In this document: positions 30,208 to 36,937 of the stretch, piece after piece | How positions within the stretch are numbered: the first letter of the stretch is position 1 | Layout: every line of letters starts with the position of its first letter | Assembly: GCF_003967355.1 (NCBI RefSeq) | Contig: NZ_BIFH01000027.1 | Location: forward strand, 186,001-250,000 | Source of the DNA: Embleya hyalina | GTDB lineage: Bacteria; Actinomycetota; Actinomycetes; Streptomycetales; Streptomycetaceae | Direction of reading: 5' to 3' | Length of the DNA stretch: 64,000 bases | Translations under genes and position numbers: made by a program | Notes under the pieces: model-generated | The model's database searches: none | Told to the model about the DNA's origin: nothing | What the model saw: the letters and a program-made list of their open reading frames with translations, nothing else

Positions 30208-30654
30208 ATGAAGCTCATCCTCACCCACGAGGTGACCGGTCTCGGTGAGCCCGGCGACATCATCGAGGTCAAGGACGGCTACGGCCGCAACTACCTCATC
30301 CCGCGCGGCTACGCGATCCGCTGGAGCCGCGGCGGGGAGAAGGACGTGGCGGCCATCCGTCGCGCCCGCAAGGTTCGCGAGATCCGCACGCTCGACCAGG
30401 CCACCGAGGTCAAGGGTCGGCTCGCGGGTCTCAAGGTGACGCTCCAGACGCGCGCCGGCGACACGGGCCGCCTGTTCGGCTCGGTCACCGTCGCGGACGT
30501 CGTGGCGGCCATCAAGGCCGCCGGCGGTCCGGACATCGACAAGCGGCGCGTCGAGATCGGTACTCCGATCAAGACCGTCGGGTCGCACCGCATCACGGTT
30601 CGCCTCCACCAGGAGGTGTCGGCCGCGCTCGACCTCGACGTCGTGCCCGCCTGA
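30208..30654 (+). CDS. rplI: 50S ribosomal protein L9
   Basis: A 148-aa protein with the L9 N-terminal domain ([34 protein letters not shown]) and the C-terminal domain ([18 protein letters not shown]). It is 17 bases downstream of rpsR and is the last gene of the operon before a terminator. Confidence 0.98.
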
Positions 30655-30664
30655 CCCGAATCAC

Positions 30665-30703
30665 CCGAACGGCCCGACCCCCTTGCGGGATCGGGCCGTT
30701 CGG
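30665..30703 (+). terminator. Terminator of the rpsF-rplI operon
   Basis: Perfect 13-bp stem (30665-30677 with 30691-30703), a 13-base loop and a following CGTTTTC. Confidence 0.85.
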
Positions 30704-30711
30704 CGTTTTCC

Positions 30712-30812: not shown

Positions 30813-32384
30813 ATGGCCAGATTCATCCGACAGTGGTTGCTGCGCGTGGTCAGCTTCGCGCTGACCGGGCTGTATCAGCTCTACCGGGTCCATCCGGTGG
30901 TGTGGCGCTGGACCGCCACCCACTATCGGCCGTGGATGCAGCGGTTCGCCCGCCGACACGCGTGGATGACCTGCCAGTTCGCCGCGCTCGACGTGCCCGC
31001 CTACCGCGACTTCCTGCGCCGACACCGGTGGCGCTTCCGCTGGTTCGACCTCGCTTCGTATCCGGAGACGTCCAAGGAGAACTACGTCAAGGCGTATCCC
31101 GAGGACAGCCGCTGCTGGTTGGGCGCCCTGGAGGTGGCCGGGACGGTGGTGGACGAGTCGTCGGGCTCCTCCGGGACGCCGCACAACTGGCTGCGCTCGC
31201 GCCGCGAACTCAAGTCGGTGCACCGCAACGTGGCCGGCTACACGTCGATGGTCTTTCCCCGGCGCAAGCTGTTCGTGATCAACGCCTACTCGATGGGCGC
31301 GTGGGCGACCGGCACCAACACCGGCATCGCGATGGCGCGGGTGGCGATGGTGAAGAACACCGGCCCCGACATCGACAAGATCGTGGACACGCTGCGCCAC
31401 TTCGGGCCGCGCTTCACCTACCTGGTCACCGCGTACCCGCCGTTCCTCAAGCACCTGCGCGACCGGCTGGACGCGGACGGCTTCGACTGGACCCGGCACC
31501 GGATGTACGGCTTCGTCGGCGGCGAGGGCATGACCGAGGCGCTGCGCGACTACCTGGAGGAGCGCTTCGTCAAGGTGCGCTCCGGCTACGGTGCCTCCGA
31601 CCTGACGATAGGGATGGCCGGCGAGAGCGACGCGACGGTGTGGCTGCGCAAGCGGCTGCTGACCGACGAGCGGCTGCGCACCCGGATGCTGGGGCCGGAC
31701 GAGGGCCGGGTGCCGATGGTGTTCCAGTACAACCCGCTGGAGACCTACCTGGAGACCAACGCCGAGGACGAGGTGATCTGCACGATCAACTCGACCGCGG
31801 TGATGAGTCCGAAGGTGCGCTACAACATCGGCGACGAGGGCCGGTTGCTGACCTTCCCGGAGGTCGAGGAGATGATCCGGCCGGACCGCGAGGCGTGGGC
31901 CGACTGGGAGCGCGCGGCGCGAGTGGAGGGCATGCGGCTGCCGCTGCTGCTGCTGTTCGGTCGCAAGGACAGCACGATCTCCTACATGGGCGCGAACATC
32001 TATCCGCAGGACGTCGAGTACGGGCTCTACCGGGACAACCCGATGGCGGCGCACCTGGAGGGGTTCTGCCTGACCGTCGACGAGTACGCCGACCTGGAGA
32101 GCCGTCCGGTGGTCAACCTGCAACTGCGCGACGGGGCCTCGCTGGACGAGGCGGATCGGGAAAGGCTCGCCCTGGTGTGCCGGGAGGGCGTGGTGCGGCA
32201 CCTGGCCCGGGTCAGCCGGGACTTCGCGCAGTCGCTCGCGGAGGATCCGACGGCGGCCGATGTACGGGTGCTGGTGCACGACTTCCGGACCGGGCCGTTC
32301 CTGCGCGGCACCACCCGGATCAAGAACGTCTATCTCGTCGAACCCGGGGAAACCGTGGAATCCGTGGAAGGGAAGCAGCGATGA
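30813..32384 (+). CDS. CapK/PaaK-like adenylate-forming enzyme
   Basis: A 523-aa member of the ANL superfamily nearest to phenylacetate-CoA ligase/CapK proteins. Phosphate loop SSGSSGTP at 116-123, VGGEGM near 236, YGASD at 259-263 (where AMP-binding enzymes have Y-G-x-T/S-E/D), GRKDS at 383-387 and NIYPQDVEYGLY at about 395-406. It should activate a carboxylic acid as an adenylate, perhaps then a thioester; the substrate is unknown. The N-terminus has a hydrophobic amphipathic start (FIRQWLLRVVSFALTGLYQLY). It is first of four overlapping genes; the stop overlaps the next ATG. Confidence 0.78.
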   Translation: MARFIRQWLLRVVSFALTGLYQLYRVHPVVWRWTATHYRPWMQRFARRHAWMTCQFAALDVPAYRDFLRRHRWRFRWFDLASYPETSKENYVKAYPEDSRCWLGALEVAGTVVDESSGSSGTPHNWLRSRRELKSVHRNVAGYTSMVFPRRKLFVINAYSMGAWATGTNTGIAMARVAMVKNTGPDIDKIVDTLRHFGPRFTYLVTAYPPFLKHLRDRLDADGFDWTRHRMYGFVGGEGMTEALRDYLEERFVKVRSGYGASDLTIGMAGESDATVWLRKRLLTDERLRTRMLGPDEGRVPMVFQYNPLETYLETNAEDEVICTINSTAVMSPKVRYNIGDEGRLLTFPEVEEMIRPDREAWADWERAARVEGMRLPLLLLFGRKDSTISYMGANIYPQDVEYGLYRDNPMAAHLEGFCLTVDEYADLESRPVVNLQLRDGASLDEADRERLALVCREGVVRHLARVSRDFAQSLAEDPTAADVRVLVHDFRTGPFLRGTTRIKNVYLVEPGETVESVEGKQR

Positions 32385-32839
32385 GGACCACCGATTTCTC
32401 GGCGGCGCCGCCGCAGGCGCGAGGCGAGGCGATGTTCATCGGGGCCACGCACTACAGCGGTCCGCGTTCGCTGCTCTCGCTGGCCCGGCCGTGGTTGCGG
32501 ATGGTGCGCACGATGAAGCGCATGGACGGCTACCGCTGGCACAAGGTCTATCTACAGGGGCCGTTCACGCTGGGCACCATCGCGGTGTTCGCCGACCGCG
32601 AGGCGCTGATGCGGTTCGCCCGCACGAGCGCGCACCGCGATCTGATGTGCTGGATGACCGACCGGGGCGAGCGCAACGGCACGGCGGGGTTCATCCGGAT
32701 CTTCGACGCGCAGCCCGGCGGGTACAGCAACGGCGAGTGGCGGGCCGAGGGGCGCGAGATGGCGCACATCGAGGAGTTCACCCCGATCGGCCGCGAGGAG
32801 AGCGGCCCGCCGGTGCACCGGAAGGCGAAGAGGTCGTGA
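32381..32839 (+). CDS. Dimeric alpha/beta-barrel (ABM/CrtA-like) protein
   Basis: A 152-aa protein. The middle (about 17-110) resembles antibiotic-biosynthesis-monooxygenase-like and CrtA-like folds: PFTLGTIAVFADREALMRFA followed by SAHRDLMCWM. Such proteins act as cofactor-free or haem monooxygenases or as non-catalytic partners; I cannot tell which. It overlaps both neighbours (ATGA at 32381, GTGA at 32836), so it is made together with the adenylating enzyme and the acetyltransferase. Confidence 0.55.
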   Translation: MRTTDFSAAPPQARGEAMFIGATHYSGPRSLLSLARPWLRMVRTMKRMDGYRWHKVYLQGPFTLGTIAVFADREALMRFARTSAHRDLMCWMTDRGERNGTAGFIRIFDAQPGGYSNGEWRAEGREMAHIEEFTPIGREESGPPVHRKAKRS

Positions 32840-33948
32840 CGCTCACCGTGGAGCGGGTCGGGTCCCGGCGCGCGCTGCGCGACTTCTGCGCGTTGCCGAT
32901 GCGGCTGCACCCGAGGGAGCGCTATGTGCCGGTGCCGCGCGATCAGGTGCGGCGGTGGGCGCGGGCGGGGATCGAGCTGTATCTGGTGCGTGATCGGGCC
33001 GGGCGGGTGGTGGGGCGCACCTGTACGCACACCGAGGCGCGGTTCGACGCCAAGCTGGGCGGGCGGCATCAGCTGTTCGGGCTCACCGAGTTCGCCGAGG
33101 ACCCGGCGGTGTTCGCCCGGCTGGTCGAGCTGATCGAGGAGCGCGCCGCGCGGGCGGGGGCGGACAGCCTGTTCGGGCCGGTGGCGCTGTTGCCGAACCA
33201 GACCGGCGGGGTGATCACGTCGGGGTTCACCGAGCGCGGCTTCGTGGACTCGGCGTGGAATCCGGCGCGGTATCCGGAGACCTACGAACGGGCCGGATTC
33301 GCCCGGAGGTTCTCGGCGTCGACGTGGATCTGTCCGGGGTTGACCGAGCGGGTGGACGATCCGGCGGCGACGTACGTGTTCGACGACGCGCGGATCGCCG
33401 CCGAGCAACTGGTGATCCGGCGCGGATCGCGGCGTCGGTTGGCCGAGCAACTGCCGATCCTGCACACGATGTTGAACGCGAGCTTCGCGCAGCTGGGCTA
33501 CTACACGCCGATCACCCTGGACGAACTGCGGGCGCAGACCGATGGGTTGGCGTATCTGCTGGACGAGTCGCTGCTGTTGTGGCTGGAGCGGGCCGGCGAA
33601 CCGGTCGCGTTCACCCTCGCGGTGCCGGACATCTCGGAGTTCCTGATCCGGATCCGCGGCGATCTGCACCCGGGCAACCGGGTGCGGCTGCTGGCGACGC
33701 GGGGGCGGTATCGCCGGGAGGCGGTGTTGATCATCAAGGGCACGGTGCCCGGGGCCCAGGGGCGCGGTTATCTCACCCTGCTCGCGCGGGAGCAGTATCG
33801 GGCGCTGCGCGCGGGCGGCTACGACACGTTGCGCAGCACGTGGGTCGAGGACGACAACGGGGCGTCGGCGGCGCAGTATCGCCGGATCGGCGGGCGGGAG
33901 CTGCACGGGCACACCTTCTACGCGAAGCCGGTCGGGAGCGCCCGATGA
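32836..33948 (+). CDS. YghO-like GNAT-family protein
   Basis: A 370-aa protein. The start (RRALRDFCALPMRLH...YVPVPRDQVRRW), RTCTHTEARFD, the GPVALLPNQTGGVITSGF segment and YPETYERAGFARRFS match the YghO-like N-acetyltransferase family. The C-terminal half (about 220-365) is a second GNAT-like lobe with LTLLAREQYRALRAGGYDTL. It could transfer an acyl or acetyl group to a small molecule. The GTG start overlaps the previous stop. Third gene of the operon. Confidence 0.65.
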   Translation: MTLTVERVGSRRALRDFCALPMRLHPRERYVPVPRDQVRRWARAGIELYLVRDRAGRVVGRTCTHTEARFDAKLGGRHQLFGLTEFAEDPAVFARLVELIEERAARAGADSLFGPVALLPNQTGGVITSGFTERGFVDSAWNPARYPETYERAGFARRFSASTWICPGLTERVDDPAATYVFDDARIAAEQLVIRRGSRRRLAEQLPILHTMLNASFAQLGYYTPITLDELRAQTDGLAYLLDESLLLWLERAGEPVAFTLAVPDISEFLIRIRGDLHPGNRVRLLATRGRYRREAVLIIKGTVPGAQGRGYLTLLAREQYRALRAGGYDTLRSTWVEDDNGASAAQYRRIGGRELHGHTFYAKPVGSAR

Positions 33949-34907
33949 GCACCGAACTCGCGGATCTGCTCCGGCTGGCCGGGCGGGCGCCGAGCGCGCA
34001 CAACACCCAGCCGTGGACGGTGGCGCCGAGTGGAGCCCTGGGCTACGCGCTGTCCTGGGATCCGGCGCGGGCGTTGCCGGTCGGCGATCCCGGGCGGCGG
34101 GACCTGTTCCTGGGGCTGGGGGCGTTCGTGGAGGCGTTCTCGATCGCCTCGGCGGCGCTGGGGGTGCCGTTGCGGGTGGAGTACGCGGGGACGCCGGAGC
34201 GGGGGCGCGGGGTGGTGGCCCGGTTCGTCCGGGCGGACGAGTGTTATCGCACGTCGTTCACGGCGGCGGAGTTGACCGGGCGGCGCAGTGCGCGGGGGGC
34301 GTACGAGCCGGGGGTGTTGCCGGACGCGGTGTTCGCGGAGGCGGCGGGAGCGTTCGCCGGGTCGGCGGGTCTGTGGCGGGGCGGGACCCGGACGCTGGCG
34401 CCGCTGCTCGACGAGGCGGATCGCTGGATGTTCGCGGATCCGGCGCTGGTCGGCGAGTTGCGCCGGTGGTTGCGGTTGCGGGCGGGGCGGGCGCCGGCGC
34501 GGGACGGGTTGACCGGGCGGGCGTTGGCGTTGTCCGGGGTGGAGGCGCGGGCGCTGCACGCGGTGTTGCGGCCGGGGGCGTATCGGGTGTTGCGGCCGGT
34601 CGGGTTGGCGCGGGTGCTGGCGGCGTCCTCGCGGGGGGTGTTGCGCTACGACGGGAGTGTGCTGGTGGTGACGGCGCCGGCCGCGCCCGGGGATCCGGCC
34701 GAGCTGCTGGAGTCGGGGCGGGGGTTGTTCCGGTGTTGGCTGACCCTGGCCCGGCACGGCTACGCGACGCATCCGCTCAGTCAGCTGATCGACTGCGCGC
34801 GGACGGCCGAGGAGGTGGCGGGTCTGGTGGGGGCGGTGCCGTTGGCGGTGTTCCGGGTGGGGCGGCCGGTGGGCGAGCCGGTGCGGTCGGGGCGGTTGAC
34901 GGACTGA
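33945..34907 (+). CDS. Acg-like nitroreductase family protein
   Basis: A 320-aa protein starting with the family signature RAPSAHNTQPW (residues 13-23), FMN-related, as in Acg-type nitroreductases; LTLARHGYATHPLSQLID near the C-terminus also fits. Its role in the operon could be oxidation or reduction of the activated product. Codon use is odd: third positions are dominated by G (runs of gtg, ggg, gcg, ttg), whereas neighbours favour C. It is last of four genes and overlaps the GNAT stop (ATGA). Confidence 0.7.
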   Translation: MSTELADLLRLAGRAPSAHNTQPWTVAPSGALGYALSWDPARALPVGDPGRRDLFLGLGAFVEAFSIASAALGVPLRVEYAGTPERGRGVVARFVRADECYRTSFTAAELTGRRSARGAYEPGVLPDAVFAEAAGAFAGSAGLWRGGTRTLAPLLDEADRWMFADPALVGELRRWLRLRAGRAPARDGLTGRALALSGVEARALHAVLRPGAYRVLRPVGLARVLAASSRGVLRYDGSVLVVTAPAAPGDPAELLESGRGLFRCWLTLARHGYATHPLSQLIDCARTAEEVAGLVGAVPLAVFRVGRPVGEPVRSGRLTD

Positions 34908-34979: not shown

Positions 34980-34996
34980 ATACCCCCTAGGGGTAT
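34980..34996. promoter_or_regulatory. CsoR-type copper operator
   Basis: ATACCCCCTAGGGGTAT is a palindrome of the G/C-tract type recognised by CsoR copper repressors. It lies 57 bases upstream of the copper-chaperone start, so the gene should be induced by copper. Confidence 0.8.
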
Positions 34997-35052: not shown

Positions 35053-35262
35053 ATGAGCACCGCCACCTTCACCGTCAGCGGGATGACCTGCGGTCACTGC
35101 GTGTCCTCCGTCACCGAGGAGGTCTCCGAGGTGGCGGGCGTGACCGACGTCGCGGTCGAACTGGCCTCGGGTCTGGTCACCGTGACCTCGGCGCAGCCGG
35201 TGGACCCCGACGCGGTGCGCGCGGCCGTCGTCGAGGCGGGCTACGAGGTCGTCGGAGCGTGA
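35053..35262 (+). CDS. copZ: CopZ-like copper chaperone (HMA domain)
   Basis: A 69-aa single heavy-metal-associated domain with the copper-binding motif GMTCGHC (about 10-16). It binds Cu(I) in the cytoplasm and would pass it to a P-type ATPase, which is not next to it here. The ATG has AAAGGA upstream. Confidence 0.9.
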   Translation: MSTATFTVSGMTCGHCVSSVTEEVSEVAGVTDVAVELASGLVTVTSAQPVDPDAVRAAVVEAGYEVVGA

Positions 35263-35325: not shown

Positions 35326-36726
35326 TCAGCGGCGGCCGGTCACCAGCCACGCGTCGGCGCGGACCCGATGGCCGAGCAGGATCACGCGGGCGAGCATGAA
35401 GGTGCCGATCGCCCACCACCACATCGCGATCAGGCCGCCGCCGAGGGCGAGCACCGTGCCCAGGACCGCGCCGAACGCGGCCAGCACGAGGGGCATGGTG
35501 AGCGCCAGATAGCGCCCGTCGCCCGCGCCGATCAGCACCCCGTCCAGGACGAACACCGCGGCGGCCACCGGCTGGAGCGCCGCGACCGCGAGCAGCGTGC
35601 CGGCCAGCAGGTGGCGCACCGCCGGGTCGGCCGTGAACAGCGGGATGTACAGCGGACGCGCGGCGATCACCACGATCGCGAACAGCGCCCCCGTCCACAC
35701 CCCCCACACCAGCATCCGGCGGGTGGCGGCGCGGGCGCCGGTCGCGTCGCCCGCGCCCAGGGCCCGGCCGACGATGGCCTGGGCGGCGATCGCGAGGGCG
35801 TCGAGGGCGAAGGCGAGGAAGGTCCACACCTGCCAGGCGACCTGGTGGGTGGCGATCGAGGTGTCGCCCATCCGGGTCGCCGCGACGGTGGCGCCGATCA
35901 GGATCGCGCGCAGGCTCACGGTGCGCACGAACAGCGGTGCGCCGGCGCCGGCGGACGCGCGGATGCCGGCGAGGTCGGGGCGCAGCGAGGCGCCGTGCCG
36001 ACGGGCGCCGCGCACGACGGTGACGAGGTAGACCGCGGCCATGCCGGTCTGGGCGATCACCGTGCCCCACGCGGATCCGGCGATCCCCCAGTGCAGGCCG
36101 TACACGAAGCCGAGGTTGAGCAGCAGGTTGGCGGTGAAGCCGAGAACGGCCACCAGGAGCGGGGTGCGGGTGTCCTGGAGGCCGCGCAGCACGCCGGTGG
36201 CGGCCAGCACGATCAGCATCGCCGGCACGCCGAGCGAGCCGATCCGCAGGTAGGTCACCGCGTGCGGGGTCGCGCTGTCGGAGGCGCCGAAGGCGGCGAC
36301 GATCCACGGGGCGGTGACCAGGCCGACCACCGTCAGCGCGAGGCCGAGCAGCGCGGCGAGCCAGACGCCGTCCAGGCCCTGGCGGATCGCGGCACGCGGG
36401 TCGCCGGCGCCGAGCAGCCGGGCGACGGCGGCGGTGGTCGCGTAGGCGAGGAACACGCACAGGTTGACCAGGGTGGTCAGCATCGCGCCCGCGACGCCGA
36501 GTCCGGCCAGCTGCGGGGTGCCAAGGCGGCCGACGATCGCCGAGTCGACGAGCACGAACAGCGGCTCGGCGACGAGGGCGAAGAACGCCGGGACGGCCAG
36601 CCGCAGGATGTCGCGGTCGTGCGCGCGGGGCCGGGGGGCGGGGGTGGGCGCGCTGTCGGGTGCCGGCACGAGCGGCTGTGGATCGGTCGCCGGAGGGTTC
36701 GTCGGCGAGGAGGGGGTGGACGGCAC
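35326..36726 (-). CDS. MATE family efflux transporter (DinF-like)
   Basis: A 466-aa membrane protein with about 12 helices. RLAVPAFFALVAEPLFVLVDSAIVGRLGT at the N-terminal end of the core is typical of DinF-type MATE exporters, which push out cationic compounds in exchange for H+ or Na+. A Pro-rich tail of about 35 residues precedes it. The GTG start has TACCGT 6 bases upstream and TTGTGC 18 bases before that, which suggests a leaderless transcript. Divergent from dnaB. Confidence 0.9.
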   Translation of the reverse strand: MPSTPSSPTNPPATDPQPLVPAPDSAPTPAPRPRAHDRDILRLAVPAFFALVAEPLFVLVDSAIVGRLGTPQLAGLGVAGAMLTTLVNLCVFLAYATTAAVARLLGAGDPRAAIRQGLDGVWLAALLGLALTVVGLVTAPWIVAAFGASDSATPHAVTYLRIGSLGVPAMLIVLAATGVLRGLQDTRTPLLVAVLGFTANLLLNLGFVYGLHWGIAGSAWGTVIAQTGMAAVYLVTVVRGARRHGASLRPDLAGIRASAGAGAPLFVRTVSLRAILIGATVAATRMGDTSIATHQVAWQVWTFLAFALDALAIAAQAIVGRALGAGDATGARAATRRMLVWGVWTGALFAIVVIAARPLYIPLFTADPAVRHLLAGTLLAVAALQPVAAAVFVLDGVLIGAGDGRYLALTMPLVLAAFGAVLGTVLALGGGLIAMWWWAIGTFMLARVILLGHRVRADAWLVTGRR

Positions 36727-36937
36727 CCGTCCACGGTAGTCATCCACAGGTAAGGGGCACAATGCCGTTCTGGTCGTTACCGGCGAGCGCGGGGCGTACG
36801 CGGGTGCACACGTGGGGCGATAGCCGCATGATTCGCCCAACAGTTTTTCACATACACAGCCGGTGGATAGAGAAATTGCAGGTCAGAGCCCGTTTGTGGA
36901 CATGATTGCGAAGCGTTGGCGGCCGACTGCGCACAGC

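Follow-up and report, generated by a model that had tools for sequence, protein, structure and literature searches.

A conserved four-gene operon beside rplI in Embleya hyalina and its possible role in the synthesis of N-acyl lipids

The stretch of Embleya hyalina DNA that we analysed (contig NZ_BIFH01000027.1, positions 186,001 to 250,000 of the forward strand; 64,000 nucleotides, here called the window) carries a plus-strand operon of about 4.1 kb. Its four genes form a unit that is conserved in content and order in other genomes. We regard it as an even bet that they encode a lipid pathway of the flavin oxidase (FDO) type, which would follow the logic of the oxazolone pathways, with a CapK-family enzyme in the place of ThiF. 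The genes are labelled A to D in their order:

Gene A: 30813 to 32384, plus strand, predicted CapK/PaaK-like adenylate-forming (ANL) enzyme, 523 amino acids.
Gene B: 32381 to 32839, plus strand, ABM-like protein, 152 amino acids.
Gene C: 32836 to 33948, plus strand, predicted tandem GNAT N-acyltransferase of the YghO/bacterial ceramide synthase family, 370 amino acids, GTG start.
Gene D: 33945 to 34907, plus strand, predicted Acg-like flavin oxidase (FDO), 320 amino acids.

A first-pass annotation, made from the letters of the window alone, had described four coupled genes at these coordinates, and its description is exact in the sequence: A and B overlap by ATGA (32381-32384), B and C by GTGA (32836-32839), and C and D by ATGA (33945-33948). 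It had also proposed a search for the same families in the same order in other genomes, and they are there, since A, B, C and D stand together in this order in 34 of the 40 loci retrieved with A. These 40 loci come from one scan of genome contigs with A, and the counts therefore say how often A is accompanied by B to D, not the reverse. Among the 34 loci with all four genes, a gap of exactly -4 is found between A and B in 17, between B and C in 25 and between C and D in 26, with starts picked by script and the mis-picked C start of locus L014 entered as a miss. Because the four-nucleotide overlaps are conserved across these loci, they go beyond chance. Furthermore, C and D form a single reading frame in 4 of the 34 (all Brevibacterium, 4 of 12), giving fused open frames of 750-888 codons. 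Against the close relatives L002 and L003, genes A to D have dN/dS values of 0.13-0.43, that is, they are under purifying selection. All this supports the view that the four genes are a conserved unit.

The remaining loci of the 40 show reduced or damaged versions. Both named Streptacidiphilus loci (2/2) have no C, and A is broken in Streptomyces PH10-H1 (L033). Hymenobacter and one Saccharibacterium carry only a D-A pair, and an Acidobacterium contig (L040) holds A split in two frames, a cytochrome gene, C and the start of D at the contig end. A search of the flanks for a fifth conserved gene found, besides A to D and open reading frames antisense to D, no cluster in more than 4 of 16 genus groups. 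The flank clusters present in three to four groups are the rplI neighbourhood of Streptomycetaceae and cluster 13 (Micromonosporaceae, at varying distances), and a few others recur in two.

The distribution of A is rare yet wide. The window's genome of 12.05 Mb has a single match to it, and the closest named relatives of A come from Embleya scabrispora and Streptomyces sp. SID3343. The A profile, at a threshold of E 1e-40, picked out 14 of 200 genomes in the family sample (G046 and G161 at about 1e-46, the other 12 at 1e-221 or better) and 12 of 396 in the phylum sample, the window's own genome being included in both. The same threshold gave 2 of 247 genomes in the phylum of Hymenobacter and 2 of 149 in that of Acidobacterium, again with the respective genome included, and at E 1e-60 the class of G284 gave 6 of 66. 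Seventeen distant A loci lie outside the ABCD and ABD arrangements (L038, L039, L040, L042, G428, G336, G290, G508, G284, G470, G627, G960, G046, G270, G415, G574, G161). D adjoins A in 11 of the 17, namely in 11 of the first 12 listed; the exception among these is L040, where D comes after the cytochrome gene and C. D sits behind a ThiF gene in G046 and was not seen in G270, G415, G574 and G161, of which G415 and G574 are short or broken stretches. A plus D is thus the widest unit of the set, and this pair of ligase and Acg-like protein also occurs in Bacteroidota, Saccharibacteria, Gemmatimonadota, Acidobacteriota and other Actinomycetota. In the loci examined, B is confined to those with C or to Streptacidiphilus-type A-B-D loci (L013, L015, L048, L049, L052). 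No A was found in phage records at E 1e-5, and one Streptomyces plasmid has a weak partial match to A (H3) that covers 23% of the query.

Two side observations concern single loci with A. At L066 and L078 (genus g86) the match to A spans two stop codons, with no D nearby, which reflects either decay or a match that overruns the gene ends. In Hymenobacter rigui (L038 3758-11712), D-A lies amid genes that by eye resemble carotenoid synthesis genes and a MerR-type regulator.

The four family names given in the first-pass annotation hold, as distant relationships. Gene A has no Pfam hit and scores 33.8 bits against TIGR02155 (PaaK), for which the cut-off is 646.3. The DESSGSSG loop, GASD, RYNxxD, GRxD and K504, close to the C-terminal end, do not vary among 16 aligned homologues. 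SSGSSG corresponds to the nucleotide loop and K504 to the C-terminal lysine of ANL enzymes, and the invariance of both in all 16 rows places A in the ANL superfamily. A is probably a PaaK/CapK-type adenylate-forming enzyme that is only remotely related to PaaK proper, and it has an extra N-terminus that is hydrophobic by eye. A simple reading as PaaK, acting on phenylacetate, was dropped, as A is far below the PaaK cut-off, and so was coenzyme F390 synthesis (TIGR03335, 20.6 bits against a cut-off of 458.7).

Gene C aligns over its full length with E. coli YghO (24% identity, 6e-29; profile E 1e-52 in a set of 30 sequences); these E-values, like those given below for plasmid C-D and cytochrome comparisons, are against small local sets. 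This homology makes C a member of the YghO/bacterial ceramide synthase family. Its model (pLDDT 93) is a tandem GNAT, with its best structure matches in a glucosamine N-acetyltransferase region and in two-domain GNATs including mycothiol synthase and the clavulanic-acid GNAT; FeeM is not among the best 50 of 870 structure matches. We take CC_1154 of Caulobacter to be its bCerS. The role of acyl-CoA N-acyltransferase (aca) in dihydroceramide synthesis is assigned to yghO and CC_1154 in one paper (PMC9386255), and another has Caulobacter bCerS acylate the long-chain base (PMC11087976).

In plasmids, tblastn found 38 records with C, Escherichia among them, and 43 with the Ensifer C. We read the neighbours of C homologues at 12 places, besides the Nonomuraea ABCD locus L043. 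Three of them are on plasmids, of Rhizobium WL3, Shinella and Ensifer PDNC004, and at each of these C and a D homologue share an overlap of four nucleotides (profile E for D 6e-54 to 2e-47). At five, the neighbourhood of C includes a pyridoxal phosphate (PLP) enzyme with the annotation class I/II aminotransferase-type or 8-amino-7-oxononanoate synthase, an arrangement like that of sphingolipid synthesis. Three places show neither a D homologue nor a PLP enzyme near C, and one, a second place in Nonomuraea, is unannotated. In a tree of 30 proteins, a branch with support of 97/89 separates the 21 FDO-linked C proteins from the 9 other YghO-type proteins. Of the 21, CapK accompanies 17 actinobacterial proteins and 1 acidobacterial one, and ThiF accompanies the 3 rhizobial ones.

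Gene D matches NF047509 (Rv3131/Acg subfamily) with 156.5 bits (1.1e-45), below the curated cut-off of 199, and NF005901 at 2.5e-16; its profile finds the Acg structure 2YMV at E 7e-20 over nearly the full length of D. By its long similarity to Acg, Rv3131 and the FDO domains of Rv1355c, D would be an FDO-type (Acg-like) flavoprotein. It falls outside the Acg/Rv3131 group, which is itself weakly supported (78/56 and 87/78 in two trees). The FDO trees leave out L040, whose D is partial, and had near-copies removed by hand. A role of D in an azoline ribosomally synthesised and post-translationally modified peptide (RiPP) was considered, and no YcaO was named among the proteins submitted to family searches. 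As a side observation, on a plasmid of Streptomyces anthocyanicus (L152 2614-5936) an FDO of the window's D branch overlaps an MMPL transporter gene by four nucleotides, a pair that recalls mmpL9 beside tyz.

Gene B is below the Pfam cut-offs (PF03992, 14.9 against 23.1 bits; PF13826, 18.4 against 25). Its AlphaFold model (pLDDT 70) has its best match in SnoaB (3kg0; E 1e-6, TMt 0.78) and further matches in other ABM structures, so that the predicted fold is clearly that of ABM proteins (ferredoxin-like).

The Tyz and Trz pathways make N-acyl-oxazolones with an N-acyltransferase, an ATP-using ThiF cyclase and an O2-using FDO desaturase; the substrates of the desaturases TyzC and TrzS, which have ThiF as partner, are N-acyl amino acids or the cyclised form, and TyzA is described as FeeM-like (PMC10404671, PMC12856293). 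For TrzS, cyclisation precedes desaturation (PMC12856293). The same trio has been linked to dehydro-N-acyl tyrosines (PMC12479983), and FDO flavoproteins are stated to be well represented in actinobacteria (PMC10404671). By analogy and homology, C would take a long acyl group from acyl-CoA and join it to the amino group of a small molecule, in the simplest case an amino acid. A would adenylate the carboxylate of the same molecule and so render the alpha position acidic, a step that may drive oxazolone ring closure or thioester formation. D would then take two hydrogens from the alpha-beta bond, B might tailor or shape the product, and the product would be an N-acyl lipid, perhaps an oxazolone. 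The gene set with its order and conservation, the C-D fusion, the enzyme families and the occurrence of C-D pairs with CapK or ThiF are observed; what the enzymes act on, in which sequence they act, whether a ring closes and what B does are all deduced from homology. The suggestion in the first-pass annotation that the set activates an acid, acylates an amine and oxidises fits the evidence, and it named the right enzyme classes.

The proposal draws support from the conserved order of A to D, the C-D fusions, the wide A-D pair, the partnership of TyzC and TrzS with ThiF, the separate branch of FDO-linked C proteins, the kinship of C with acyltransferases of dihydroceramide synthesis, and a set of rhizobial plasmids. 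Rhizobium WL3, Shinella and Ensifer PDNC004 share the order of an unnamed gene of 313-314 amino acids, ThiF, a hydrophobic protein, C and D:

Rhizobiaceae plasmid operons: L146 4046-9066; L147 3972-9066; L148 3825-8967.

The matches to C and D abut in 10 of 10 Rhizobiaceae records, with ThiF checked in three. The simplest history is that the C-D pair has worked with either activating enzyme, CapK or ThiF. The first gene of these operons has a GNAT-like motif by eye and no convincing Pfam or NCBIfam match. The c-type cytochromes beside C-D in Acidobacterium (L040 1134-2564) and Rhizobium WL3 (L146 9063-10463) are homologous (28%, 2e-35) and are possibly an electron acceptor. A further combination occurs in a genome of the window's own family, G046 (L080 8614-12220), where an A-like gene, an Rv1355c-type ThiF (303 bits against a cut-off of 476) and a D-like gene follow each other with four-nucleotide overlaps; its A and D are distant from those of the window. 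No match to the Rv1355c family was found in the window's genome at E 1e-60, the Rv1355c-type ThiF loci L088-L098 have neither A nor D within roughly 1.5 kb on each side, and searches for PRK14852 and PRK14851 gave no member over the cut-off (0/21 and 0/99 genomes).

The chief rival takes A to supply the acyl donor. A would make acyl-AMP or acyl-CoA from a long-chain or aryl acid, D would desaturate it and C would transfer it, giving an unsaturated N-acyl aminolipid with no ring on an amino-acid carboxylate. We consider this possible, though less probable than the oxazolone-like route. The closest named relatives of A are CoA ligases, and E. coli yghO adjoins, divergently, a gene for a fatty acyl-AMP ligase, a precedent for an ANL enzyme feeding a YghO-type acyltransferase. 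D-A alone is widespread, as expected of a module that activates and then desaturates, and in two genomes of genus g96 an Acyl_transf_3 gene stands beside D-A: in L076 (6056-9911) it is clear (E 2e-26) and overlaps D by four nucleotides, and in L075 the match is partial and weak (E 0.003), at the contig end. However, the rhizobial C-D pair sits with ThiF, and the ThiF of Tyz and Trz acts on the N-acyl amino acid, not on the donor.

Several further observations weigh against an oxazolone-like route for the window's operon. FDO-A, the group of the oxazolone enzymes, excludes D, its three rows being grouped with support of 98/92 and 97/90 in two trees; the test has three rows only, one of them a full Rv1355c-family member, and the trees are without TyzC and OxzB. 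Support for grouping the C-linked D proteins is weak (83/31), and the AU test does not reject a single clade (p-AU 0.17). With L080 set aside, the branch that divides the D proteins linked to CapK or C from FDO-A plus FDO-B is not strong either (83/77). The two Streptacidiphilus loci do without C, as do the other minimal D-A loci. The kin of C are ceramide synthases rather than proteins of the FeeM type, to which TyzA is assigned, and B has no counterpart in the Tyz and Trz pathways. Finally, the rhizobial 313-314-amino-acid gene could be the real amino-acid acyltransferase of its operon, and G046 has both activating enzymes, such that A is not simply the substitute of ThiF there.

The nearest named families of the cassette (phenylacetate-CoA ligase, ABM monooxygenase, nitroreductase) would also suit the detoxification or degradation of an aromatic or branched acid, to which A would ligate CoA, B would add oxygen, D would reduce or oxidise, and C would acetylate an amine by-product. 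Two results make this improbable: the flanks, whose functions were not systematically annotated, share no cluster across more than 4 of 16 genus groups apart from A to D and the frames antisense to D, and the kin of C are long-chain N-acyltransferases of lipid synthesis. Acg has been suggested to be an FMN-holding protein, and there is doubt about a reductase activity of the Acg type. D could likewise merely hold FMN and the four genes form a stress-response set with no one shared pathway, in keeping with the membership of mycobacterial Acg-type genes in the DosR regulon. The tight gene order, the overlaps, the fusion of C with D and the pairing of C-D with CapK or ThiF all point to a pathway, and we give this explanation very little credence.

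More tentatively, the cassettes may encode a new family of azlactone or dehydro-N-acyl-amino-acid lipid synthases, in which a CapK-type ANL enzyme activates the carboxylate and closes the ring as ThiF does in known oxazolone pathways, a ceramide-synthase-type GNAT makes the amide, an ABM-fold protein carries out a step that those pathways lack, and the D-A core extends over at least five phyla; we hold this to be conceivable rather than probable. The characterised FDOs of the papers cited all work beside ThiF, and the cassette links what seems to be a distinct branch of FDOs to a CapK-type ligase and a ceramide-synthase-type acyltransferase. It thereby offers a candidate product class for orphan Acg-like proteins, and may be an instance in which one adenylating fold has taken the place of another while the core stayed the same.

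The operon is flanked by rplI and MATE, just as the first-pass annotation had it:

rplI: 30208-30654, upstream flank of the operon.
Hairpin 3' of rplI: 30663 to 30706, plus strand, -35.6 kcal/mol, z -5.7, unflagged by the T-tail scan.
Small HMA-like gene (heavy-metal-binding, by eye): 35053-35262, between D and MATE.
MATE: 35326-36840, minus strand, downstream flank.

The hairpin is the probable end of the upstream transcript, and because it is strong the operon is probably transcribed apart from rplI. A consensus scan found neither a promoter nor a terminator for the operon. Separate from the operon, the palindrome ATACCCCCTAGGGGTAT lies at 34980-34996, upstream of the HMA-like gene; it resembles a CsoR-type copper operator.

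The adjacency of rplI and MATE, which the first-pass annotation had stated for S. coelicolor, is borne out in the family. The locus was obtained in 30 of 31 Streptomycetaceae genomes searched with rplI, and MATE converges directly on rplI in 19 of the 30. rplI is followed by A in 3, namely the window's genome and two others of the same genus, and by a D homologue alone in one (G025, L132 126-1067), and neither MATE nor the cassette is found within about 1.5 kb of rplI in 7, one of them on a short contig. A also follows rplI in four further sampled genomes of the family (G054, G078, G093, G114). In the Embleya group, as in Streptomyces SPB162, H39-S7, fildesensis and smaragdinus, the cassette separates rplI from MATE; Streptacidiphilus carries its cassette at another site. 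The annotation's impression that the block was inserted there is not supported. A recent insertion was dropped because two Streptomycetaceae lineages share the site, because of the tree and because decayed remnants are present: L033 and L055 (G131) keep a broken A and a C fragment in the same arrangement, perhaps as the same species, and L132 keeps D alone. In the concatenated tree (LG+G4) the Streptomycetaceae cassettes are not one clade (p-AU 0.001), the tested group having been chosen after the first D tree was seen; L071 has a long branch, L033, L034 and L040 are left out, fused C proteins enter with their first 395 residues and the C of L014 with its last 372. As cassettes that form no clade share the site and remnants persist there, the better explanation is that the cassette has long been resident there, was lost repeatedly and at times moved from one family to another, although two independent insertions at the one rplI-MATE site are conceivable.

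With respect to known systems, the first-pass annotation knew of no described pathway with this set, and we likewise found none with the exact four genes in the open-access literature. A match to a characterised pathway holds for the logic, which is like that of the Tyz and Trz N-acyl-oxazolone pathways, and fails for the enzymes, which differ. The novelty of a set of CapK, FDO and YghO-type enzymes is provisional, because the literature search covered mostly open-access papers. TyzACB and TrzAS of mycobacteria and OxzAB of Pseudoalteromonas rubra resemble the operon in combining an N-acyltransferase, an ATP-dependent carboxylate activator and an Acg-like oxidase in one cluster, and in the occasional fusion of two domains. 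However, their activator is ThiF/E1 and that of the window CapK/ANL, their acyltransferase TyzA is described as FeeM-like and C is a YghO-family tandem GNAT, and the window's oxidase lies outside FDO-A and is joined by an ABM-like protein. Since family searches with A to D gave no ThiF match and D is outside FDO-A, the operon is not a member of the Tyz/Trz group. The NasY/ThiF/nitroreductase clusters for stieleriacines, thalassotalic and kyonggic acids likewise share an acyltransferase, an adenylating enzyme and a nitroreductase with the operon, with ThiF in place of CapK; the main text of that report contains none of the terms 'CapK', 'phenylacetate' and 'GNAT' (PMC12479983).

For the single enzymes, PaaK, a phenylacetate-CoA ligase, is a distant homologue of A within the ANL superfamily, set apart by the score of A and its extra N-terminus. 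The Acg nitroreductase (2YMV) is matched by D over nearly its whole length, whereas D branches outside the Acg/Rv3131 group. The bacterial ceramide synthases (YghO, Aca) are full-length homologues of C, but the window's operon has no serine palmitoyltransferase-like gene, and the FDO-linked C proteins branch apart within the YghO family. The Rhizobiaceae plasmid operons, in turn, share the adjoining C and D homologues with the window, and carry ThiF and a hydrophobic protein where the window has CapK and ABM.

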